From a bacterium (GTDB lineage Bacteria; Patescibacteria; JAEDAM01; Absconditabacterales; Absconditicoccaceae), in assembly GCA_017442645.1 (NCBI GenBank), contig JAFRZH010000030.1, forward strand, positions 1 to 41,193: DNA of 41,193 bases, written 5' to 3'. Shown one piece after another: positions 1-34,284 of the stretch. Numbering within the stretch: the stretch's first letter is position 1; each line of letters starts with the position of its first letter. The translations under genes were made by a program, and so were the position numbers. The notes under the pieces are model-generated. The model searched no databases. It worked only from the letters and a program-made list of their open reading frames with translations, and was not told the DNA's origin.

Positions 1-778
1 AAACAGTCAATTTTCCAGATTTAACTTCAGTTTCTTCGTTATCACCAGAAGTTTCTTCTTCACTGTTATTATTTACATCTTTCATAGCTTCTTCACAAGC
101 TGATGTACAGTTACCTTCTAGGAGACACAATAATTGTTGTGTTGCTGTACATTCTTCAGTAGATTTTCCTACCATTCCAGCAGATCTTTGAAGCATCAAC
201 ATTACATATCCTCTAATTTCATTTTGAGAAGGATTAGAGATATCTTTCATGATAGTTACACCATTGTATGATTTATTCAATGCATTTAAATGGTATTTGT
301 AATATTGTACTCCAGCTCTTTGTTCTTCTTCAGTTGCATTGTTTTTGTCTCCCCAAAGAAGTCTAGACAAAGCAGTACCGAATTGAGCTCTTGTAACAGT
401 TCCATTTGGATCAAAGTTAGAAATACCTTGTCCCATGATTCCTAATTGACAAGCGTTTGTTACACCGTTGTCATAAGCTTTATCCATTGCAGATGAAACA
501 TCTGGAAATGAACAATCAAGAGATGTGTCAGGTTTTTTTCCAAGATTATTGATAGCATAATTAGCTAACATTTTAGCCATTGCTACTCTTGTCAAATTAC
601 CCATCATATTTGCTTGATCAATAGTGTCCATAGTTGTAACACCATTTTCGTATGCCCATTTATAAGCTGATTGAAGCTCTTCAGAATATTGAGCTCCCAT
701 TACAGTTGTAGCTGGCATAACACTACTTACTGCTATCACTCCCGCAGCGATAGCACTAATTTTTTGTTTGCTATTCAT
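1..778 (-). CDS. S-layer-type surface protein, expressed head (partial, runs off left edge)
   Basis: Secreted surface protein. The N-terminus (MNSKQKISAIAAGVIAVSS...) is a typical signal peptide ending near VMGA. It is followed by two S-layer-homology-like repeats; the second has the signature GQGISNFDPNGTVTRAQFG. A four-cysteine linker (CTATQQLLCLLEGNC) comes next, then an acidic Asn/Glu/Ser-rich hinge that leads into a tail beyond the window. The start at 778 gives the cleanest signal peptide. An in-frame ATG at 820, preceded by AGGAG, is an alternative that would add 14 residues. No TGA codon occurs in this part. The linker codons contain the near-palindrome shared with the two start-less tail cassettes, so this is the only copy in the window with a promoter and start. 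SLH proteins anchor to the cell envelope; that this one does so is inferred. Confidence 0.85.
   Translation of the reverse strand, partial: MNSKQKISAIAAGVIAVSSVMPATTVMGAQYSEELQSAYKWAYENGVTTMDTIDQANMMGNLTRVAMAKMLANYAINNLGKKPDTSLDCSFPDVSSAMDKAYDNGVTNACQLGIMGQGISNFDPNGTVTRAQFGTALSRLLWGDKNNATEEEQRAGVQYYKYHLNALNKSYNGVTIMKDISNPSQNEIRGYVMLMLQRSAGMVGKSTEECTATQQLLCLLEGNCTSACEEAMKDVNNNSEEETSGDNEETEVKSGKLTV
54..141 (-). repeat. Inverted repeat arm A (head/tail junction)
   Basis: Read on the minus strand, this 88-bp stretch matches 1256-1343 on the plus strand with a single mismatch. It starts with CACAACAATTATTGTG (126-141), a 16-bp near-palindrome in which 7 of 8 base pairs are symmetric. It lies inside the head reading frame and encodes the QQLLCLLEGNC linker. 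Sequence upstream of the palindrome is unrelated in the three copies, so homology begins exactly at the palindrome edge. Confidence 0.9.
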
Positions 779-821
779 AGCTTTCGTGTAATAAAATATA
801 AAATACTTTTTCAGAGTCATT

Positions 822-835
822 CAACTCCTAAGTTG
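822..835 (-). promoter_or_regulatory. Leader hairpin overlapping an AGGAG ribosome-binding motif
   Basis: On the minus strand CAACT-TAGG-AGTTG forms a 5-bp stem with a 4-base loop. Loop and 3' arm contain AGGAG, placed just before the upstream in-frame ATG at 820. The hairpin could limit access to that start; the effect is inferred. Confidence 0.4.
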
Positions 836-876
836 CAAGGCTCCTGTCTCCACAAGAATAAACCTTTGTAATTCAT

Positions 877-904
877 ACTATAGGAAGTTGATTTCTTTTT
901 TCAA
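877..904 (-). promoter_or_regulatory. Promoter of the S-layer head
   Basis: On the minus strand, -35 TTGAAA (899-904), a 16-base spacer and -10 TATAGT (877-882) lie about 100 bases upstream of the start codon. The same hexamers and spacing recur at 31568, 32241 and 34411. The promoter lies inside the putative invertible segment and would move with the head. Confidence 0.7.
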
Positions 905-1255
905 GAGATTTTAATGACAATTTACGACATCCACTGTCTAAATCAAAAGAATTAGATTAGGAAGAGTATTTTCTCATTAATCTCTTGTCCAAACCTTTTG
1001 AAGATTTGAAATAAAAGACTCTTACATAATAGATTACGGAAGATTTTTAATTTTGTGACAAAAAAGTTTTATTTTTTACCAAAAAAGAAAAGAAATCTGA
1101 CTTCCGAATATGGAAAACTTTTTTGACTTTTTTCAGCTTTTTCTTCTTTTTTTATTTTATTCAGATTTTTTTGTTGTTTTTTTTGCGGAGGGGTTGTCAG
1201 ATTTTGACAAGTAAAGTTTTTTTTAATTGTTTTAGATAACCTCGAAAACGATATG

Positions 1256-1343
1256 CACAACAATTATTGTGTCTCCTAGAAGGTAACTGTACATCAGCAT
1301 GTGAAGAAGCTATGAAAGATGTAAATAATAACAGTGAAGAAGA
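1256..1343 (+). repeat. Inverted repeat arm B (silent cassette 1 junction)
   Basis: This is the plus-strand copy of the 88-bp arm, with the 16-bp near-palindrome at 1256-1271. The reading frame entering it meets TAA at 1237 and no start codon in between. The ATG at 1253 is out of frame and stops within nine codons. Together with arm A it flanks the head in inverted orientation. Confidence 0.9.
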
Positions 1344-3885
1344 TGACAACACTACTTCAGATGATAAAGTTAAGAGTGGTAAATTAGTAGTAACTAATGA
1401 AAAGAATGAAGGAGCTTCTGTTCTTTCTTACGGTTATGATTCTGAATTGGACACAATTAACTTCTCAACTGATGAAGAAATTACTCTTAATAGTATCACT
1501 CTTGAGAGATTTGGACTTTCTACAGCTGAATCAATTGATTCAATTTGGTTAGAAGATACAGAAGGTAACATTGTAACTTCTGAAAAATCTCTATCAAGTT
1601 CAAAAGATACAGTAACTCTTTCTTTGAAAAAAGAATATAAGAATATTGATGGAAATACTTCATTCATCGTTGTTGTAAAAACCATTGATGCACCAAGTAG
1701 TGATTTAGGAACAAATGTTGGTTTCAAAGTTGTTGATATTGATTCAACTGCTGAAACAACAAAAAACAATGTTTCTGCTAAAGCTAATCTTTATGCTTTC
1801 GCTGATTACACTGGAGAGGGTGTACAAGTTGCTTTCAAAGGTAATGCAGGAGAAAAAACATATAATTATTCTGAGAATGAAATGTATGAAGTTGCTAAAT
1901 TTAAAGTAACAGCTTCTAGCTCTGCAATTGAAGTAAATGGATTTACTTTAGCAAATAAAGGAAATTTAAAACTTGAAAAGATTAATGATGTTGAAATTTT
2001 AGTTGATGGAACTGCTATTAAATCTTCTTATACTGTTAAAAATGATGATTTACAAGTTTCATTTGCAGCACAAGAAATTGCAATCAAAAAGAGTTCAACA
2101 TTTACTGTAAGAGTAAGTTTGGCAGATTACGATGATTTTGGAAGCAAAATCAATATGTATTTTGATGAAACAAGCGACTTAAATGTTGTTGAATCTAAAA
2201 ATTCAGTAAGAGTAAAAATTGATACTACTTTAGCTGATCTTGTAAGTCCTACAACTTATATCTTTAATGGATCAAAAATTGTTCTTACAAATACAAAAAT
2301 TAATGCTACAGTAGATGCAGCTCAAGATTCTGATGATGTAACTATTGCTAAAGGAACGATTGCTATCAATGGACAATCTATTAAGATTCCTTCTCTTACA
2401 ATTAATCCAGATCCAGATTATGAAGATGATATTGAATCTATTAAATTGGTTATCAATGGAGATTCTTATGAATTTACTTCAAAGAAAGATTGGACAGTAA
2501 GAAATGTAACAATTGATGAAGATGCTGATGTTGAAATTACTGCTGATGTAGCTTCTGATGCTATTAGTGGACATGTTGTATCTTTCGTTATTGGAGGAAG
2601 TACTGGAGTTATTAACACATCTGCTCTTTCTGGAGCTCAATATGAAAATGATAAATCTGCTGAAGTTATCTTTAATGGAAGTATTTCTATATCAAAATTA
2701 AAAGTTCAAGCAGCTAAAGCTTCATTTGTAAATAATATTACTAAAAAAGCTCAATTTAAAGTAAAAGAAACTACTACAAATACAGTATTTGAAGGAGTTT
2801 ATACTGCTAAAAAAGGAGAAACAAAAGTTAATGAAGTTGTAATTTCAAAAACAGCTGGTACTATTAATACAGGAGATACTATTACATTTAATGTTTATCT
2901 AAATGGAAGTTCTAAACCAGTTGCTTCTGCTGACTTTGATGTGAAAAATACAGCTGATGCTAATGAGACATTTAGTGCAATTACTGTAGATGCTGGAGCT
3001 GACATTAATGTAAGAGTTGATGCTACAGTATACGCTACAACAGGAACAGAGTCTGACTTGAAATTTACAGTTCAACTTAAAGGAGAAGATACAAACGGTA
3101 ACGATGTTAATTCTTCTGCTGTTGAAATGGTAAATATGGAGTTTGTTGATTCTCAAGCCATTACAGTTACAACAAATGCTGCTATTAAAGAACAAGATAT
3201 TATTCTTGCTAATAGTAATCAAACTGTTGCTAAATTCTTGGTAAAACCAGGTAATAAAGCTGAAACTGCAACACTTGATACTTTAACTATGGAGGTTGGA
3301 AGTTTTGATCTTCCTGCATCTGCAAACTTTGATGATTATTTCAGATTAACAATTGGTGGAACAGAAGCAGATAATGTTGAAATTCAGGGCGATGGTGCAA
3401 GTGCAATCATTACTGTTGAAGATCTTAATGAAAATGTTAAAGGAGAAGTTGAAGTTGAATTAGTTTATAAGAAAGAACTTACTGCAAATACAGATTATGA
3501 AGTTGTTCTTAGTGATGTAAATGGAAAAAATCCAGCTAGAACATTCAAGAGAAAAGCTGTTAATGCAATTGTAAGAGTAATTTCTCAAACAAATACTACA
3601 GCAACTACAAAATATCGTTTTGATATTGATTATTCTGATAATGCTAATAATGAAACAATCGCTTCTGTAACATTTACATATAAAGACGGTAATAATGAAA
3701 CTTGGACAAATGTTCAAGAAGCTAAAGATTATTCTTATGTAAATACTGATAAATCTTCTCAAGTAGAAACAATTGAATATACAGATGGAGATTGAAATCC
3801 AGTAACAATATATAAAACGGATTATGAAGATTTCTTTAAGGTTGGATCTAATGACGAACCTTTAATGAGTTATGCAAATAACTAG
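1267..3885 (+). CDS. Silent S-layer tail cassette 1 (no own start)
   Basis: A long open frame of about 872 codons that begins inside the shared linker (LCLLEGNCTSACEEAMKD) and continues as a beta-rich, Thr/Ser/Val/Asp-rich extracellular protein with repeated Ig-like segments. It has no signal peptide, SLH repeats, credible start or promoter of its own; the first codon given is only the TTG in the linker. In-frame TGA at 3793-3795 is read as Gly, and the frame runs on to TAG at 3883-3885. This is the only TGA in the cassette, although glycine is common. Its first 200 residues resemble cassette 2 (KSGKL..., SITL..., STAE...). It is predicted to be expressed only after joining to the SLH head. 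Confidence 0.8.
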
Positions 3886-3904
3886 AAACTTCGATATAAA
3901 GATT

Positions 3905-3935
3905 AAACTCTGATTTCGGTCAGAGTTTTTTCTTT
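3905..3935 (+). terminator. Rho-independent terminator of cassette 1
   Basis: AAACTCTGA-TTTCGG-TCAGAGTTT gives a 9-bp stem followed by a T-run, 20 bases after the cassette stop. Confidence 0.85.
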
Positions 3936-4025
3936 TCTCTTGTATAATGAAGAAGAAAAATGAAATTGAAATTCCAAAAAATTTTTCTATCATATGAGGT
4001 AGTTTTATACTTTATTTGGATCATA

Positions 4026-4211
4026 ATGTATCAAGATACACAAAATATTACTCTTCCTAGGCATCTTTTTGATGATATCTTACTTGAATTACATAAAATG
4101 AATAAGTTATGCGAAGAAATTGATCATTATCAAGCTATGGAAGAAGTAAAAAATAACGATACAACTCAATATAATAATGTAGAAGATTTTTTAGATAGTT
4201 TAGATGAATAA
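4026..4211 (+). CDS. Small acidic antitoxin of a RelE/ParE-type pair
   Basis: A 61-residue acidic protein (MYQDTQNITLPRHLFDDI...) directly upstream of a RelE/ParE-like toxin, with stop and start overlapping as TAATG. The N-terminal strand followed by helices suits an antitoxin of the RelB/ParD type, but no specific family is recognisable. The frame is open back to an ATG at 3960; I prefer 4026 because the extra residues are hydrophobic and unlike an antitoxin. A TATAAT box at 3943 lies upstream. The role is inferred mainly from gene order and size. Confidence 0.6.
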   Translation: MYQDTQNITLPRHLFDDILLELHKMNKLCEEIDHYQAMEEVKNNDTTQYNNVEDFLDSLDE

Positions 4212-4477
4212 TGTCACGAACAATTCTAAAAACCAAAAGATTCCAAAAAAATTTTAAAGAGTTACCTTCACATATTCAGTTAAAATTCAAAGAGATTATC
4301 CCTTCTTTTGTACAAGATCCTTTTCTTCCTTTTTTGAAAACACACAAATTAAAAGGAAATTTAGAAGGATTATATTCGAGTAGCATTTCGCATAACTATA
4401 GATTTGTGACTATTATTGATTTTGAAAAACAAGAAATGACCTTTGTAAATGTTGGAACTCATGCAATTTATCAATAA
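4211..4477 (+). CDS. RelE/ParE/YafQ-superfamily toxin
   Basis: An 88-residue basic protein with the fold pattern of RelE/ParE toxins: N-terminal helices with a basic stretch (LKTKRFQKNFKELP), the HKLKGNLEGLYSSSIS strand motif, YRFVTII, and the C-terminal VGTHAIYQ that resembles the H-x3-Y ending of YafQ/RelE mRNA interferases. It is translationally coupled to the preceding small acidic gene. Ribosome-dependent mRNA cleavage is expected for the YafQ/RelE branch and gyrase poisoning for ParE; the sequence does not decide between them. A terminator follows at once. Confidence 0.8.
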   Translation: MSRTILKTKRFQKNFKELPSHIQLKFKEIIPSFVQDPFLPFLKTHKLKGNLEGLYSSSISHNYRFVTIIDFEKQEMTFVNVGTHAIYQ

Positions 4478-20536: not shown

Positions 20537-23500
20537 CTACCCTTCCCATAAGATTTTAAAATACTTCTTTTTTCTTGTTTCATAACAATTTTTGAGTGAT
20601 TCAGGGAGAAGATTAACAACTTGATTCACCACATATTCTTGGACACTCTGATTATACTGTTTTTTGAAAATCTGGGAAACATCGGTAATTTTGATAGGAA
20701 TTCCATTCCACTCATAATTCTGATTTCAAGCTTTGATCTGTTTTTTTACCGTTGAATACAATGAAAAATAATCTTTTAAATCTGACTGATAGAAGAGGAG
20801 TGAATAGTCATTTTTGAGATAGGTTTGAAGTTCAGAGAGCAAATTATTTTGAAACGAAAGAAGTTTTTTGTCTTGTTCTGTCGTGGAATTAGGAATTTTC
20901 TTGCAAGTAAAGGTGACTTTATTGTACACGACACACAATTGATCTCCATTTTTTACGAGAGAAATCTTTTTGAGTAAAGACAAATCTTCTGTTTGAATTT
21001 GTTCAATTCTTTCATTATTTTGTTTAAAAATCGTTCATTCTTTCGATTTTTCATAACAAAACGTATCGAGAAGATGGTCTCATTTTTGCAGACTTACACA
21101 AGAAGCGGAGTTTGGAAGAGAAAAATTTCATTTTACCGTAATTTCTTGAGAAGGAATCAGAATTCCTGAGATCTTTTTTTTGGTCTTTCCATTAATCAAA
21201 AGAGAAAAATCCTGACTTAAATCAAGTTCTAACGGTTCTTCATCGATTCTCTCTCGGAAGAGGGTAATTTCCTCTTTATCGATGTCTTTTCCGGAAGGAT
21301 TAGGAACCGCGGAAAGAATTTTCACCTGAGGAATAATCAGATTTTCATTCTCTTTTTCCAAAAGATCAGAAGTCGGATTATAACAATAGGTATCAAAAGT
21401 ATATTCTTTATATTTGAGGGAAACACAGGTCGCCTTGGAATTTGGGAAAGAAAAATCTCCTGTAAAATCCATTGTAGGTTGAATCGTTTGAAGTCAAAGG
21501 TCTGAAAGGGATTTATTTTTAGTTGTTCACGTAGCAAATTCTCCTCGTGGAAAGATTTGAAAACTAAAATTATCAGAGAAGTCAATTTCTGTACCACTAA
21601 ACTCGGAAGCATCGACTGAAAGACTAAAAGCTTCTTTATTTTTATCGGTTCCTTCAGGATCGTAAAGAAGATTCGTAATTTTAATATGTAATTTGTCATA
21701 GTCTTTTTCTCGTACTTCTGGTTCATCTGCTAAGGAAGTTCCACAAGTTTGAGAAGATCGGAGTCCTTTTTGATAAGTTTTTGCATCTTGTTCAGATTCT
21801 TGAAACTCTTTTTGAAATTGGTAGGCGGTTTTAAAGGTGTATTCTTTCGCATATCCTTCGGAAATCATTTTCTGATTGATCAATTCGCCGTCCAAGTAGA
21901 CATAAGCGACATATCTTCCATACAAGTCAATTTGTTCTTGAGAATCATCAAATTCGAGGCGGACGTTTTTATTTTTCAAGAGCTCCGTAAGATATTTTTT
22001 CGCTTCAAGTCCAAAACATTCCGTCGTACGGAATCTTGTTTTATTGGATTCTGGTGCATCTGCTCAAAGAAGTCTTACGGATTGTAAGGTTCCATCTTCT
22101 TTACGGAAACGGAAGGTATCTCCATCAAGAACGGAATATACTTTCACTGTTCAAGTCTGATTTTCTACTTTTTTATTGGGATTGTAGGAATAGGTATCAA
22201 AAATTTTATCTTCATAAAACAGAGAAATCACTACATCTGCATTGTCTTTCGTAGAATTTGGAAATCAAAATGTTCCTTTCAAACTCTTCATTTCTCAGAT
22301 TTCAAGTTCTCAACTTAATTTTTTATTGGTTGAATTCACTTTCATTTTTATTTTTGAAAGATTGACGGGAGTAGAGGAAAGATTTTGAATCGTAATTTCC
22401 TCATTATTAGTATCGGTTCCTTCAGGATCATAAAGGACATCGATAATTTTGAGAGTATACGACGAAGCATCAAATTTTTCCTCTTTTTTTTCTTCTTTCT
22501 CTGAAACAGTCTGGTCTTTTCCCTCTTTTTCTTTTACCGGTTTAGTATAACAATACTGATCAAGCTGAAAATCTCACGAATAAAGCGAAATACAAGCTCA
22601 AGCATCTGGAAATCCAAAATTCTTCTCAAAGGTATCAACAGAGAACGATTTTAAAGTTCAAGTCAAGTATTTCTTCGTCGTTGAAGTGGAACTTTTAAGA
22701 TAAAACGATTTCTGCGACAAATCTACATCATAGGTTAAAAAAGATTGAAGAGTTATTGCTTCTGGACTAAGATATTGAAGATCAATAATTTTGATTTTGG
22801 AAGAAAGAGAAGAAAAGTCTGACGGTACTGAAAGAGCGTCTTGATTTCATGAAAGGAGATTTTCACCTTCGTTATCAAGGGAATGATTTAAAGAATCTCA
22901 AGTTCCTTCGATTGTTTCCTGTTTTCCACAAAGTTGTTCCTTCGTTGGACAAGAACATCATCAACCACCTCATCACACATATTTCACCGTTTCAACCGTC
23001 TTGATATTGAATTTCGATGTCGGAGAAAAATATGTCAAAACATCTTCAGAGAAGCCTGGCGAAAAATCGTCCACTTTATCAAACTCAACCCCACAGACAT
23101 CTATCTTTTTTGTTTTATATATTGACTTTTCTAAAATTCAGGTATAAATTAGTATTTTGTCGAAAAGCTGTCTACTTTGTCCATCGTCTCATCGTAATTC
23201 AAGGTTACCATTGAAAGATTTAATTTCGAAATCATCATGCAATAAAAGAGTTAGCAATCCTGCTTCTGCAAGTTGTCACGGCTTCTGAGTTATTAAAACT
23301 CTCGAATTCTTCTGTAAATAGGAAAATTCATAATTTTCTGTTGACTCTTGAAGATTGATTGTAATGGAGTTTTTAAGAATTCATCCAGAAAGAATCAGAT
23401 TTTTATACTTTTTGGGTAAATCTTTATGAAGCAAAATCTCCACATACGGATCATATCTTTCTCCTCAAGCAAAAATTTCAGCGATTTCTATAAGATCCTC

Positions 23501-25252
23501 AACACATTCTGAATCGCTTGGTTCTTCAGGCTCGTCAGGTTCCTCTGGATCAGGATCGGGATTATGAGGGGTCGTTGCTTTCGGTTTCGAACAATCAATC
23601 ATTTCGGTGTCAGAATCCGAATAAACCACTCAAGGATTTGCTTGTAAAGGAGTCGGGATATTCTGAGAATCATGGGTAATTGCTTGAGTCACAATTCCCT
23701 GTGAAGTTTTCATGACTTTATGAAAAGACATCAGATAATCATCTTTTTTAACGACTCGCTCTTTATCAACCATAAATGAATCCTCTTTTCTCTCCTCTCT
23801 CCAAAGTTCAACATGAATAGCTTGATCATCAGGAATCAATAATCTCGGATAATCCAATCCTAATCACAAAATTCCCTCATTGAGAGATAAAAAAGTAGGA
23901 TCATTGGCTAAAATAAGGAATCCCCCTGCAGGAATATACATTCCCTCAAAAGTAATGGCATTTGTAACTTCAAAAACCTCTCCAGAAAGAGTAAAACTTC
24001 AAAGAAAATCTCAAGTTCCAATATTAGAAATTTCTATCCATTCTTTCTGATTGACAATCACATCACAAATCTCTTCTTCTGTACAATCATCATACCAAAC
24101 TTCTGAAATCACTAATCTCGCAGTATCATTATTCACTCAAGTTAGATTTGTTCCTGTTTCTACCGTTCAAGTTAAGATTTCTCAAGTTCCAGGAGTATCT
24201 GGATTTTCTCAAGTTCAAGATTCATTTCAAGTTCCATTTTCTGATTCGGTTTTAATTTTTGTCGAGATTCAAGCAATGATTTCATCGGTTTCAAGGTTCC
24301 TTTGAAAAGAATATTTCTTTTTTTTATTAGGGTCATTAGTTCCATTCGCATTAATAGGAAAAGAATCTATTACACTTCAAGAAAAATAAAGATAAATCGG
24401 ATCTTTTTTAGTGTCTGATATAACAAATGCTGGATTTTGATTGCTTACCATAATTCATTGTTTAAAATCAACAGTACCATTTGTAAAAATCGAAGAAGAA
24501 TGAGCTTTAATAAAAATATTTTCTCAAGTTCGATTTCAATTTGATTTTTTCACTCATTCTAAGACAAAATCCCCCTCAAAATCTTCATCTCATATATTTG
24601 TAATTTCAATCCATTCATCACTTGATCGAATATAGACTTCCGTAATTTTTAAATTTGGTAAGTTCTCTCCAGTTTCATTTTCATTTCAACCATCATTTCC
24701 ACTTCAAGAAGTATTTTCATCTTCTGAAAGAATTCAATCTCCGTTTTCATTCACGACTCAACGAAGAGAAGTACTTTTTTCATTCTTTTTTTGATCGTTT
24801 TCATTTTCTTCTTCATCGTTTTTTCAAAATGCATCGTTTGGTTCAAATTCATCATCAAATTTTGAATCAAATTCTTCTTCATGTTCAAGATTAACCGAAA
24901 TTTCGTCGTTTTCTCATTTTTCATCAGGTTCCTCAGAATTTTCTTCTTTTTCTGAATCTTCTTCTGTCTTTTCTTCACTATCGCTTGCAAGACTACTATC
25001 ATCTTCTTCAAACAACCCCGTTCCTTCTCAAGAATCACTTTCTCACTCATCAGAAAAATTTTCTTCCTCTCACGATTCATTCTCTGGCAATTCTTCCTCA
25101 TTCTCTGGAAATCCATTTGTATTCTCAGAAATTATATTTCAATTCTCTGGCATTACCCCAAATTCTCAGGAATTTTCCTCAGCAAAAACTTCCTTTGGAA
25201 ATAACGAAAAAAAGAGGAAAACTCGTACTATTACGGTCGTTATTTTTCTCAT
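20537..25252 (-). CDS. Giant secreted protein: lamin-tail-like repeats around a staphylococcal-nuclease domain
   Basis: 1571 residues in one TGA = Gly frame. Signal peptide MRKITTVIVRVFLFFSLFP...VFA; acidic Glu/Asp/Asn-rich region (about 25-190); lamin-tail-like beta domains opening with LKITEVYIRSSDEWIEITN (about 199) and RLVISEVWYDDC...EWIEISN (about 377); a Pro/Asp/Glu hinge (about 570); further related domains (about 585-1030). A thermonuclease-type domain (about 1033-1165) has VLDGDTFRF, VRLLGADAPE and LYGRYVAYV, so the equivalents of D21, R35, D40, E43 and R87 are all present. Two more lamin-tail-like domains opening KITNLLYDPEGTD and KILSAVPNPSGKD follow, then a helical C-terminus. Secreted SNase domains degrade DNA and RNA. 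It starts 22 bases after murG. Domain boundaries are approximate. Confidence 0.88.
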
Positions 25253-25274
25253 CAATGATAAAAAGTAATTAAAA

Positions 25275-26381
25275 TTATCCAAGGATCGCTTGTAAAATAA
25301 TCTCTTTTGTTTTTGTTACTTCCTCAGAACAAAGAGGAAAATGTTCTTTTTTATAGTCAGCAAATTCTCGCAATATTTCTCCTAAATCCTTTTCAAAATA
25401 TTGATCGTCTTGATCTAAAACGATATCGTGAAAGTGTTTTTCATAATATAAGGCATTGTCCATTTGGTCATGAGTTCGCGGAATTGGAACAATAATAGTC
25501 TTGAGGTGAAAGATCTTTTGTTCTGCAAGAGAAGTTGTTCCCCCGCGAGAAACTGCTAAATCAGACAAGGAATACAAATATCCCATCTCCTTTTGAGAAA
25601 GAAAATCAAATACGATCGCACCTTTTTTCTCGAAATCTTCCTGCAAATCTGCATTCAATTTTCCTAATGATACCACCATTTGGATTTTTTCCGCGAGTTT
25701 CTCATCAAAAACCTTTAATAAACTTTCATACAAGCTTTTGGCTCCCTGAGATCCCCCACTCACAAAAAGAATCGTTTTCGAAGGATCTAATTTTTCCACT
25801 TTTTTTAAAAAAGAAGCAGAAAAATCTGACTCTCCATCTTTAGATGCGAATAAATCTTCTGACAAAATCTGTCCAACTACGGTCTCTTGAGGAAAGATAT
25901 TTTCAAATCCTGTAAAAGTTTTTGTAGCCCATTTAGAAGCGATACGATTTACCAATCCAGGATGAGTATCTGATTCATGCACGATGATTTTTTTACGAAG
26001 GATTTTCCCTGCAACAACGACAGGTAAAGCGACATATCCTCCTTTACAAAAGATCACATCAATCTTTTTTCTTCGAAGCAACCATAAACTCTGAATCACC
26101 CCGATAAAAAAAAGAAAAAAATCTCTCACATTTTTCACTAAAGCAGAAAAAGACTTTTCACGACGAAATTTTCCAGAGAGAATGGTCTGAAATTGAACTT
26201 CTTTAAATTCAGAAGCCACTTGCTGTTCTAAGGAATTTTTGGTTCAAAATCGGAAAATTTGCTTCACTTTAGAAGAATACTCTTTGTTTTTTGCAAGAGT
26301 GGAAAGCAATGAGCGAATAGGAAAGACATGTCCTCCTGTTCCTCATCATGCCATAGCGATATTCTTCTGCTTCATACTCAT
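25275..26381 (-). CDS. murG: UDP-GlcNAc--lipid I transferase MurG
   Basis: Transfers GlcNAc to lipid I to form lipid II at the inner membrane face. 368 residues. The N-terminal glycine loop AGGGTGGHVFP begins GCA TGA TGA GGA, a tandem pair of recoded glycines. Also present are CKGGYVALPVV, HESDTHPGLVNR, VSGGSQGAKSL, SRGGTTSLAE and PIPRTHDQMDNA. ATG at 26381 or 26375 can serve as start. Followed on the same strand by the secreted nuclease gene. Confidence 0.96.
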
Positions 26382-28597: not shown

Positions 28598-28725
28598 TAA
28601 TAACTTTATAAACTAAAATAATATATTATAATTATTGTAATAATAATTTTTTTTTCAAATTTTTTGAAAGTTTTTTCAACTACATTATTGGCAATATATT
28701 TGAAAGAATCTTGATTAAAGATTTG

Positions 28726-28790
28726 CACAACAATTATTGTGTCTCCTTGAAGGTAACTGTACATCAGCTTGTGAAGAAGCTATGAAGGAT
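28726..28790 (+). repeat. Junction repeat of silent cassette 2
   Basis: Third copy of the junction, beginning with the same CACAACAATTATTGTG (28726-28741). It is identical to the head copy over 65 bases except for two changes. Upstream sequence is unrelated to the other two copies, and the entering frame meets TAA at 28716. Same orientation as arm B, inverted with respect to the head. Confidence 0.9.
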
Positions 28791-31496
28791 ATCAATAACG
28801 GAAGTGATGAAGAAACTTCTGATAATGATAACGATGATAAAGAAGTTAAATCTGGAAAATTGACTGTTAATGTTGAAAAAGAAGTAGATACTAAGGATAT
28901 TCCTACAACAGGAACTGTTATTGTTGATAGTATTGAATTGTCTTCTTCTGAAGAAATGACAGTAAAATCTATTACTTTAAAACTTTCTAATTATACAAAA
29001 GCTGATAATATCTCTTCTGTATGGTTTGAAAAAGATGGTCAAACTATTTCTAATGAAAAATCAACTTTCAATAATAATGAAGTAACTCTTACATTAAAGA
29101 AAGGATTGACTGTAAAAAAATCTGAAACTATTGACTTAGTTGTTGAAACTAAAGGAGCAGAAACTAATGCTGTTATCGGATTCGAGGTAGTGAAAGTAGA
29201 ATCAACTGCTGAAAGTGTAAAAATTAAAAACGCTATGACAACTTCTTGCAAAACTATTCCTTATGAAACAGCTAATATTGTAGTTACAGAAAAATGAAGT
29301 GGAGCTTCTTATGAAAAAAATAATGAATCTCATGAATTTGGACAATTTAGAGTAGAAAATAAAGGAGGTAAAAATGGTAAAACTGTAAATCTCTCTTCTA
29401 TTACATTTACAGTTGCATGAGAAAATGTTGATAACCTTACTGACTTTGAGATTAAAGATAATGATGGTAAAGTTGTATCAACTAGTTATGTTGTAAATAA
29501 AGATAAAGTTACTATTTCTTTGAAAGATTCTATTGAATCTCAAAAAAATAAAAATTATTATCTTATGGCTAAAGTTGATGAAGTAAGATCTGCTGAAGAT
29601 TCTTATACTTTCAAATTAGATGAAGCAGGAGACTTTGTGGCTTATGAAGAATGAACATCAGCTAGAGCAACTGCAAATACTTTCGAATTAAAAACTTATA
29701 AAGTTATTGGTGGAGATTTTACTCTTGCTTCAACTCAAACACTCAAATCTGTACAAGGAAATCGAGGAAAAGAAGTTATGGTTGCTGAAGGAACATTTGA
29801 TGTTATTGAAGCTATCGTTCTTAAAAAAGAAAATCAAGGATATACTAAAGGAAAGACATCTGCTCTTAAAATTACAGGAAAAAATTTCTCTGGTCTTAAT
29901 ATGTTAACTATTAATATTGATGGACAAAATTATGATGCTGTAATTGATTCTGATTATGAATCAGCTTATGTAACAGATGATATTAATATTCCTGAAGGAA
30001 CTTCTAAAATTAAAGTATATGCTGAATTATTAACTACAAAACCAAAAGGATTTTCTGGAAATATTACATTCGATAATATTACTACAGATTCATTTACTCA
30101 TACAGGAAAATATGAAGAAAATTCTGAAAAAGAATTCTCTGTGGCTGCTAAAATGGTAGGTACTTTGACTATGGCTAATGTAGAAATTGATGGAGGACAA
30201 GTTATCCTTGAAAAAAATACTACAACTAATCTTGTATTAAATCAAACTAAAGTTAATGGTAATGTATTTGAAGGAACTATTAAAAACGAAGGAAGTTTTG
30301 ATCTAAAAATTGATAGTATTTCTTTAACAGGAAAAGTTATTTTCTCAGGTTACACAAAAGCTGATGCCGGTAACGATAATATTGCTATTGCTCTATCTGC
30401 TGGTGGAAAAGCTGGAAGAACTTCTGATAAAAAGATTGCTATTAAAGATCTTTCAGGAACTAATAATGATACAACAACTAAAACATTTACATTTGATTCT
30501 CCTGTAATTGTTAAAGCTGGAGATTCTGTAAATGTATCATTAGATGTAACATCTGCTGCAATTACTATGACAGGAGCAAATAAAGATGAAGATTATATGA
30601 AAGGTATAGAATTCCAAGTATCAGTAAAAGTTATGGATAATGAAAATGGAACAGAAATAGAAACACCATCTAATACGATTACAGCTACTGTTGATGTTAA
30701 ATCTGTTAAGATTGAAAAAGGAACATCTACAAATAAATCTTCAATTATTCTTCATAAGACATCTAAACAACTTATTGGACAAGGAGAAATCCAAATCAAA
30801 AATGGAGATGCACAATTGAAAAATATTGAAGCTATCATTAGTGGATCAAGTACTGATGATCAGAAGAAAATGACATCTGTGTTAGTTGAAATTGATGGAG
30901 TTAATAATGGAACAAAAACTTATTCTATTGTTAATGAAAATGATGGTAAGAGCTTTAAAACTACAGGTATTTCTCAAACAATCTCAGAAGGATATCATAA
31001 AGTAAGATTATATGCTTCATTTGGAGATTTTGAAAAAACAGCATGATCTTTTAATGTTTCAGGTATTACATTAGGATTTGATGAAGGAACGGGTGTTATT
31101 GAAATTAACACAACAAAATCAATTTATCCTGCTAAACTTAATGTTGCAAGATCTAATGCTCTTAGTGAAAATAAATTAGTTCTTAAAGTTACAAATGAAG
31201 GTTCTGATACTGTATATGTTAAAACTATTTCTGGAACAAATTTAACTGGTACTAAAATTACTGTTGATGGGGTAGAATATACTGCTGGTGAAGAAAAAAA
31301 AGACAATTTTGTTGCTATTTCTGCATGAAGTTCTATTGAAGTTAATGTAACAGTTAAAGAAAAAGATACTAAAGAGGTTAAAGCCTTTGTTGAAAATATT
31401 GAATATACATTAGATACAGCATCTGCTAGTTCTCTTAATGTAGATTCAGTTAACTTTAGTGAACTTGATTGGGCTAATTTCTATGCTGTATTCTAG
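28737..31496 (+). CDS. Silent S-layer tail cassette 2 (no own start)
   Basis: An open frame of about 919 codons beginning in the shared linker and continuing as a Thr/Ser/Lys/Asp-rich beta protein. Five in-frame TGAs (about 29295, 29418, 29652, 31044 and 31326) are read as Gly and link what look like separate fragments; it ends at TAG 31494-31496. It has no signal peptide, SLH repeats or in-frame start. Its first residues after the hinge (EVKSGKLTV) match the off-window tail now joined to the head more closely than cassette 1 does (KSGKLVV). The first codon given is only the linker TTG. Predicted to be expressed only after recombination with the head. Confidence 0.8.
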
Positions 31497-32974: not shown

Positions 32975-33032
32975 GTAAAAAAACTTGATTTATAATATTT
33001 TATCCATAATATATGGATATATTTGTACATAT

Positions 33033-33611
33033 ATGATAGTTAAAATGATACAACAATTATTAAATCATGAGAATACTTGTTTTACTTTTCAGGAGATTTT
33101 TAATCTTTATCAAAAAAATGAAGATTCGTTAAGACATCTCTTAACAAGGTATAAAAAACAAGGAATTTTATTAAATCCTAAACAAGGAATACGGACTCTT
33201 CCCCACTATAGTCAAGAAGAATTAGCTTCTAAATTATTTCCAGGATGATATCTTTCTTTGGAAAGAGTATTGTTTGATGTTGGAGTTAATTTTCAGCGAT
33301 ATGCTTGAACCCAAACAGTAATTTGGACCAAAAATACTTCTCTTGATGTGAACGATGAACATTATCTCAGCTACAGTATTAAGTCAGATTTATACCACAA
33401 TTCTTTATATATTCAAGAATATAATGGCATTCGTAAAGCCATGCCAGAAAGGGCATTATGTGATTTAGTCTATCTAAATCCTAATACATGACTTGATAAT
33501 CCACAATATTTTCAGACAGATCAGAGTATTCGTAGATTAAAAAAACTTCTTCCCTTTTATCCCAAATCTACTCAACAACATGTGATGAAATTCCTTACTC
33601 AGCAGATATAA
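33033..33611 (+). CDS. AbiEi-like antitoxin of a type IV toxin-antitoxin system
   Basis: 192 residues. An N-terminal winged-helix part (FTFQEIFNLYQKNEDSLRHLLTRYKKQG) is followed by GGYLSLERVLFDVGVNFQRYAGTQTVIW and MPERALCDLVYLNP, the pattern of AbiEi regulators. AbiEi represses its own promoter and neutralises AbiEii; the pair can give abortive-infection phage defence. A second ATG at 33045 is a possible start. TGA gives glycines in PGGYLS and YAGTQ. It overlaps the next gene. Confidence 0.82.
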
Positions 33612-34284
33612 AGCTAAACATGAAGCTTATATGAAAGAGATTTTAAATCTGATTTATACTGGAGATTTTAAAGATAGTATTGGGTTTAAATGAGGAAATC
33701 TTGCTTTTTTGAAATATGGATTAACAAGATTTTCTACAGATATCGATATTGATCTGATAGATAAATCCAAAGAAAAAGAGGTTATTGAATTTTTTGATGA
33801 TAATTTAATCGCATTTGGATCGGTTGAAAAGATCTTAGGGAAAGATTTACACCGTTGGAGATTATATTATGAATTGTGAAGTCGGATTATTAAGATCGAA
33901 CTCAATAAAAGAGAAAATCCTTATACTCAGTATGAAAAAATTACGATTGATCAGTTAGAAATTACTGCTCAAACAATAACTTCAATGTTTGGTAATAAAC
34001 TATGTGCATTATGAACAAGACGATATAATAGAGATTTATATGATGTAAACTTCTTTTTACAACAATGATTCTCCATTGATCCTCAAATTATTTTTCAACA
34101 AACTTGATTCTCACTGAAAGAATGGATCCAATATTTAATCAAGCATATTCCTATAAAATTTTCAGAGAATACCATTTTACACCAATTGTGAGAAGTGTTA
34201 GAAGATCATCAAAAAGGGCGAGTCAAAAAGGAACTAATTGAAGATACTATCAAAAGATTACAAGAGTATCTTAATCATCTTTAG
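33580..34284 (+). CDS. AbiEii-like nucleotidyltransferase toxin
   Basis: 234 residues from ATG TGA TGA at 33580, or 217 from ATG 33631. The motif FKGGNLAFLKYGLTRFSTDI followed by DIDLID is the nucleotidyltransferase signature of AbiEii (GG, S/T, DxD). IKIELNKRENP supplies the third acidic residue and RRYNRDLYDVNFFL the conserved C-terminal motif. AbiEii-type toxins block translation or growth by nucleotide transfer. The first Gly of KGGN is TGA-coded. It is translationally coupled to AbiEi. Confidence 0.88.

Follow-up and report, generated by a model that had tools for sequence, protein, structure and literature searches.

Near its left end the window, the whole 41,193 nt stretch of DNA analysed here, carries the first part of a probable surface protein gene between two inverted repeats. 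The question that this locus raises is whether that part of the gene, the head, can be turned around, so that it is joined now to one protein tail and now to another. An earlier note on this DNA proposed a switch with two sites and two tails. The observation is real and is larger than first reported, because there are at least three of each, the site at 28726 having been missed. The locus is probably an expression cassette, predicted to invert by site-specific recombination, by which one head would be joined to one of at least three tails.

Inverted repeat, core and sites

An inverted-repeat search places the two arms at 54–141 (minus strand, site A) and 1256–1343 (plus strand, site B). As first described, they form an 88 nt inverted repeat with one mismatch (99 % complementary), with 1114 nt between them. 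Both arms open, again as described, with a near-palindrome of 16 bp, CACAACAATTATTGTG. Comparison for identical cores found this core unchanged at 126–141 (minus strand, site A), where it lies inside the coding linker (QQLLC), at 1256–1271 (plus strand, site B), and at the third site, C, at 28726–28741 (plus strand). On this contig, 16-mers with at least seven of eight palindromic pairs occur at 29 of 41,178 positions. With up to three mismatches allowed, the first 28 bases of the repeat have three copies on the contig and none in 100 shuffles; the third copy, at 28726–28753, has one mismatch. The inverted repeat and the third site are far above chance.

Similarity among the sites extends from the core towards the tails, into the linker. 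On the other side, the sharp stop of homology reported before holds for site A, where the head-side bases adjoining the core match site B at 1 of 6 positions and site C at 1 of 6, but not between B and C, which match at 5 of 6. Further out on the head side, B and C agree at 10 of 20 bases, therefore the site may reach slightly beyond the core. The core was also compared with the chromosomal dif site, as represented by the dif sequences of E. coli and B. subtilis. For likeness to E. coli dif, sites B and C rank within the top 0.15 % of contig positions, and for B. subtilis dif within the top 2.9 % and 0.9 %, respectively; site A is not special in either comparison, and the likeness carries little weight.

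The head and its leader

The head gene starts with an ATG at 776–778 on the minus strand. Based on Pfam, fold prediction and a copy search, its head (142–778, minus strand) comprises a signal-peptide-like start and an S-layer homology (SLH) anchor, and runs to the linker; the start of protein P0001 is signal-peptide-like by eye. There is one Pfam SLH match above the cut-off (residues 90–133). The ten best PDB matches of the predicted fold (mean pLDDT 66) are all SLH domains, with modest E values of 0.01–0.08, and the head sequence has no match among solved structures. Of the SLH repeats claimed earlier, an SLH domain is thus supported by Pfam and by the fold matches, although a single Pfam match passes the cut-off. 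The cassette likely encodes an S-layer-like surface protein. Long reading frames on the contig need TGA to be read as glycine (table 25), and the named relatives of the head are from Absconditabacterales and SR1 (P0018 and P0024).

Inverted sites A and B flank the head, leader included, and the copy search of the contig found no second head, in agreement with the claim that the sole copy lies between the repeats. The leader (779–1255, minus strand) is 477 bp long, and a promoter is expected here. The promoter reported on this segment does not, however, stand out: the promoter-match scan found 20 promoter-like matches in 1–4000 against 20.0 expected, which is the chance level.

Tails and reading frame

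As assembled, the head is joined in frame to tail 0, of which the first part, including the linker, lies at 1–125 (minus strand) and is cut by the window's end. These 125 bases past the core differ from tails 1 and 2. The in-frame junction is as the earlier note had it. The note placed the rest of this tail outside the window, but the window's own protein P0124 is recorded with a longest contig of 41,193 nt, equal to the length of the window. The contig therefore most likely has nothing beyond the window, and the remainder of tail 0 is missing from it.

The other two tails both start inside the core, and were delimited by open reading frame and frame reading. Tail 1 (1267–3885, plus strand) has 872 codons in table 25, from a TTG at 1267, and matches the start-less tail of about 870 codons in the linker frame that had been claimed. 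Reading back in frame, there is no ATG, GTG or TTG before the TAA at 1237–1239 (plus strand) that closes it upstream. Tail 2 (28737–31496, plus strand), with 919 codons in table 25, is likewise closed by an in-frame TAA at 28716–28718 (plus strand), with no start codon before it. Neither tail has a match in Pfam or NCBIfam. Tail 1 is predicted to be beta-rich (mean pLDDT 85, pTM 0.45), and Foldseek, although with low TM-scores, gives many strings of Ig-like or comparable beta domains among its top matches.

In the proposed switch, a recombinase encoded elsewhere in the genome would cut within the core. The leader would carry the promoter, and only the tail attached to the head would be made. 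Exchange between A and B would invert 1.1 kb, the predicted invertible segment being 142–1255 (1114 bp, no strand assigned), and would join the head to tail 1. In silico, this inversion gives an in-frame, full-length protein of 1088 aa. Exchange between A and C would invert 28.6 kb and join the head to tail 2, with an in-frame, full-length product of 1135 aa in silico. The frame is therefore kept on flipping, as had been predicted for tail 1, and it is also kept for tail 2. Among the 120 relatives of the head that are listed (the best 120 of 287), 108 are 950–1221 aa long and 12 are shorter. Cells of one population would then differ in their surface tail.

Gene neighbourhood

The surrounding genes look chromosomal, and include DNA ligase, D-Ala-D-Ala ligase, uracil-DNA glycosylase, SecF, pyruvate kinase, a murG-like glycosyltransferase, and DprA. 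Among these housekeeping genes are both silent tails, tail 1 adjoining the head segment and tail 2 being 27 kb away. Sites B and C are direct repeats around the ligA-, ddl-, secF-, and murG-like genes, which are usually essential. Recombination of B with C would remove 27 kb, these genes included, and be harmful, so that a functioning switch would have to prefer sites in inverted orientation, or the cells in which B and C recombine would be lost.

No site-specific recombinase was found among the 37 contig ORFs tested. Of 29 related genomes, 27 encode tyrosine recombinases and 13 encode serine recombinases, therefore a recombinase acting in trans is possible. An Rfam scan of the window found nothing.

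Directly after tail 1 is a pair of small genes (3960–4477). The second resembles a YoeB/YafQ toxin, with a Pfam match below the cut-off, and the first could, by position, be the antitoxin. An AbiEi/AbiEii-like type IV toxin–antitoxin pair is present at 32985–34284, 1.5 kb past tail 2, the AbiEi match being weak and below the cut-off. Toxin–antitoxin-like pairs near both silent tails might protect the tails from deletion. Elsewhere in the window, 20537–25282 encodes a 1581 aa protein with staphylococcal-nuclease and lamin-tail domains.

The terminal 141 bases of the window run precisely to the border of the site A core that faces the head. MEGAHIT uses k = 141. It is only an idea that an assembler with k = 141 would stop there if the core and tail 0 had two left neighbours in the reads.

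Heads and tails in related genomes

A search with the head found 287 proteins, and the linker was included in the alignment for 113 of the 120 listed. There are 77 protein pairs with heads that are at least 95 % identical, of which 61 have tails that are less than 50 % identical, seven have tails of 50–80 %, and nine have tails of at least 80 %; because the 90 % clustering of the database hides pairs with the same head and the same tail, these counts are evidence of swaps and not of their rate. In the 61 tail-divergent pairs, involving 38 proteins, the first difference is at a median of 2 residues past the linker (range 0–13). The reverse pattern, in which the tails are more alike than the heads, is seen in eight pairs with heads less than 90 % identical. 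These mosaics support modular swapping of heads and tails in the relatives. For example, P0002–P0004 have heads that are 96–97 % identical and tails that are 36–48 % identical.

The search with tail 1 found 48 proteins and that with tail 2 found three, the window's own P0124 being in both. Without P0124 there are 49 tail homologues, 21 with a head, two with a partial head, and 26 without a head as annotated, the last status being from protein records, so that wrong start calls or contig edges are possible. Reading of TGA as a stop was considered as a cause of the missing heads and rejected: in 23 of the 26, tryptophan stands at positions that are glycine in relatives, which shows that TGA had not been taken as a stop there. 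Less certain as head-less are P0135, P0140, and P0122, which are without this tryptophan-for-glycine mark, and P0129 and P0147, which keep a short end of the head. P0122, on another contig, opens with MCLLEGNCTSACEEAMKDIN, the same junction as in the window. P0130, on a 196 kb contig, starts at the corresponding junction of P0002–P0004. Five other head-less proteins open with a short flank that is not from a head, DELYVMLML in four and EVYVMLMM in P0123.

A genome scan with the head alone found no locus. With the head alignment, 72 loci were found, the better-covered of which are at most 54 % identical to the head, therefore none of these comes from the species of the window. No closer relative was found when the class was searched with P0001 (192 genomes) and with P0003 (353 genomes). 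Repeats around the head were sought in 20 of the 72 loci; 15 of these 20 have the cysteine linker. No such inverted repeat was seen among the best five matches of each. Exact matches among these best five per locus are only 13–16 bp, besides one tandem repeat; for L011 and L019 the sequence stops short on the upstream side. Inversion sites are therefore not general in the lineage. A search for the 88 bp repeat in 20 related genomes gave no match, an empty answer that carries no weight. In viral contigs, the site as an exact 22-mer was not found, and the head alignment found one distant locus.

Among the matches listed from a class-wide tail search of 353 genomes there are at most two candidates per genome. 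Tail copies were counted anew, with all candidates scored, in 26 of the 29 genomes used. The tail is present in 21 of these 26, and extra full-length head-less copies are present only in UBA3291. Tail fragments were seen in G003, G008, and G020, and in G004 the second linker-bearing copy has a head. In SR1 bacterium RAAC1_SR1_1, there are four short, weak matches in a row to the cysteine linker alone (G007:C1:1166106–1166432, L007), perhaps from a protein with repeated linker-like motifs.

Silent tails in UBA3291 and alternative explanations

In the metagenome-assembled genome (MAG) UBA3291 (G018, containing L019), the gene is complete on one contig, and three tails without a head are found on others. 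All four copies have in common a junction repeat opening TATGTAATGCTAATGC, at a junction that differs from the window's in being earlier in the protein. No inverted repeat was found by the UBA3291 head, the contig beginning approximately 350 bp upstream. In two of the silent copies (L116:605–1085 and L118:793–1273), a common upstream flank of approximately 480 bp is mostly non-coding and ends in a short frame, FGLKKSKKLPDDELY, resembling the flank of the head-less proteins P0142 and P0128; the third copy is cut by a contig end, 81 bases upstream of the junction. An Rfam scan near these cassettes found only a tRNA, by one cassette.

This common flank fits homologous exchange as well, and so bears on the main rival explanation, in which sequence from the silent tails would enter a single expression locus by homologous gene conversion or unequal exchange, without dedicated inversion, and the repeat is linker homology only. 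Pilin and VlsE cassettes are silent donors of this kind, with gene conversion into the expression locus, and on the contig there are both truncated silent copies that could serve as donors and one expression site. The closest pair of UBA3291 tails falls from 98 % similarity at the junction to 55–72 % at the end, which also favours conversion. In addition, the head and tail mosaics of strains require no inversion, and none of the 20 related loci has repeats around the head. On the contig itself, however, similarity begins at the near-palindrome, and the left flank of A is unrelated to those of B and C, an argument that is tempered by the agreement of B and C at 5 of 6 bases by the core. The silent tails are, moreover, complete, so whole-tail swaps at one point would be expected. 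Gene conversion from silent tails is, on balance, unlikely.

It is less likely still, to the point of being improbable, that these are static paralogues, in which head-less tails are the leftovers of duplication or rearrangement and are never re-expressed. A single orientation of the segment was assembled and the 37 contig ORFs include no site-specific recombinase, as would suit such leftovers. Against this, the two silent tails are intact, at 872 and 919 codons, and in the head's frame, 26 of the 49 tail homologues are annotated without a head, and different tails follow near-identical heads in 61 of 77 pairs. Likewise, the expressed UBA3291 tail and the nearest silent tail have a dN of 0.23 and a dS of 0.62 over 883 codons, a ratio of 0.37, which suggests coding constraint, although a pairwise ratio cannot separate the two copies. 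That the inverted repeat is an assembly or amplification chimera at the contig end is scarcely credible. It does lie less than 1.4 kb from the end of the window, where the contig probably ends too, but its arms differ by one base and lead on to tails that are not alike, the identical core recurs at site C, 27 kb inside the contig, and a protein from another contig, P0122, begins at this junction as well.

Inversion of the head by site-specific recombination is thus the preferred explanation. Of the earlier claim that an invertible head chooses among tails, the anatomy, the kept frame, the start-less tails, and the mosaics of the relatives are in support, whereas no promoter stands out and no site-specific recombinase was found among the 37 contig ORFs tested.

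Comparison with known systems

Shufflons of the Rci type keep the head in place while several tail segments are inverted behind it, and the recombinase gene is adjacent. The locus had been likened to a shufflon, but here it is the head, not a tail, that lies between inverted sites A and B, and the 37 contig ORFs tested include no site-specific recombinase. Diversity-generating retroelements have a reverse transcriptase together with template and variable repeats; this candidate was rejected, as no reverse transcriptase match was found in the 37 contig ORFs tested.

The S-layer protein is changed by chromosomal inversion in Campylobacter fetus (sap) and Lactobacillus acidophilus (slp). In both, the silent genes keep a conserved coding part and the promoter segment moves. 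Tails 1 and 2 are without a head, in contrast to the silent sap copies of C. fetus, which keep the conserved N-terminal part. For omp1 of Dichelobacter nodosus, Moses is said in 1995 to have described a segment with the promoter and 5′ coding region that inverts, joining alternative 3′ ends at several sites. The product is an outer-membrane protein and is not known to be SLH-anchored. The present locus would be like omp1, as reported, in the inverting of a 5′ segment onto alternative 3′ ends, and is unlike it in having an SLH anchor.

The vsa system of Mycoplasma pulmonis has the recombinase HvsR and the vrs box. One expressed 5′ region is joined in it to silent 3′ regions (PMC10502178). The vsa genes are in a cluster, unlike the silent tails here, which are 0 and 27 kb away among housekeeping genes. 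In Clostridioides difficile, cwpV is a phase-variable cell-wall protein gene with short inverted repeats and with the recombinase RecV encoded away from the switch (PMC2784873). It is an ON/OFF switch, in which the 195 bp inverted piece has neither promoter nor coding sequence (PMC2784873); the predicted segment here differs in carrying the head, and would choose among tails. Hypervariation in a gracilibacterium was also considered and rejected as the same phenomenon, since it concerns synonymous tripeptide repeats (PMC6851277).

The closest match in print, by analogy, appears to be the UU172 element of Ureaplasma (PMC3047005). There, the N-terminal part of the gene is turned around between two repeats, of which one belongs to its 5′ coding region and the other to the spacer next to it. 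The inverting part of the UU172/mba system has a signal peptide and a potential anchor, and it becomes fused to a silent partner of opposite orientation. A further gene has a third repeat, and inversion was shown by experiment (PMC3047005). The present locus is like UU172 in that one of its inverted repeats falls within the 5′ coding region and the other precedes the gene, and in having a single-copy anchor on the predicted invertible segment. Silent, start-less tails in the same frame at further sites are shared with the UU172/vsa type. UU172 concerns mycoplasma membrane proteins with repeats of tens of nucleotides (PMC3047005), whereas the locus here, known from sequence alone, has an 88 bp repeat and an SLH-anchored, S-layer-like protein, and belongs to a bacterium close to Absconditabacteria that reads TGA as glycine. 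The moving of the anchor rather than the tails, by which the earlier note had set the locus apart from a shufflon or promoter-inversion switch, therefore has a precedent in Ureaplasma (PMC3047005). In a literature search, with most subscription journals outside its scope, the titles and abstract openings listed reported no comparable switch, whether in Absconditabacteria, in Gracilibacteria or for an SLH protein.

Biological implications

The chances are about even that there is a lineage-wide S-layer plug-in, in which a mobile head inverts among scattered, complete, head-less tails and clonal epibionts vary their coats; this would be the first switch of the antigenic-variation type in the candidate phyla radiation. 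A reversible head–tail switch, if true, would explain the near-identical heads with unrelated tails in the databases. It would also be testable in existing long-read metagenomes, as coat variation within a population and as tails that track host or phage. The two cultivated Absconditabacteria are predators (PMC11452946). In a predatory organism, such a switch, if true, would make cells differ in adhesion, in the prey that they can take, or in how far phages and grazers can reach them.
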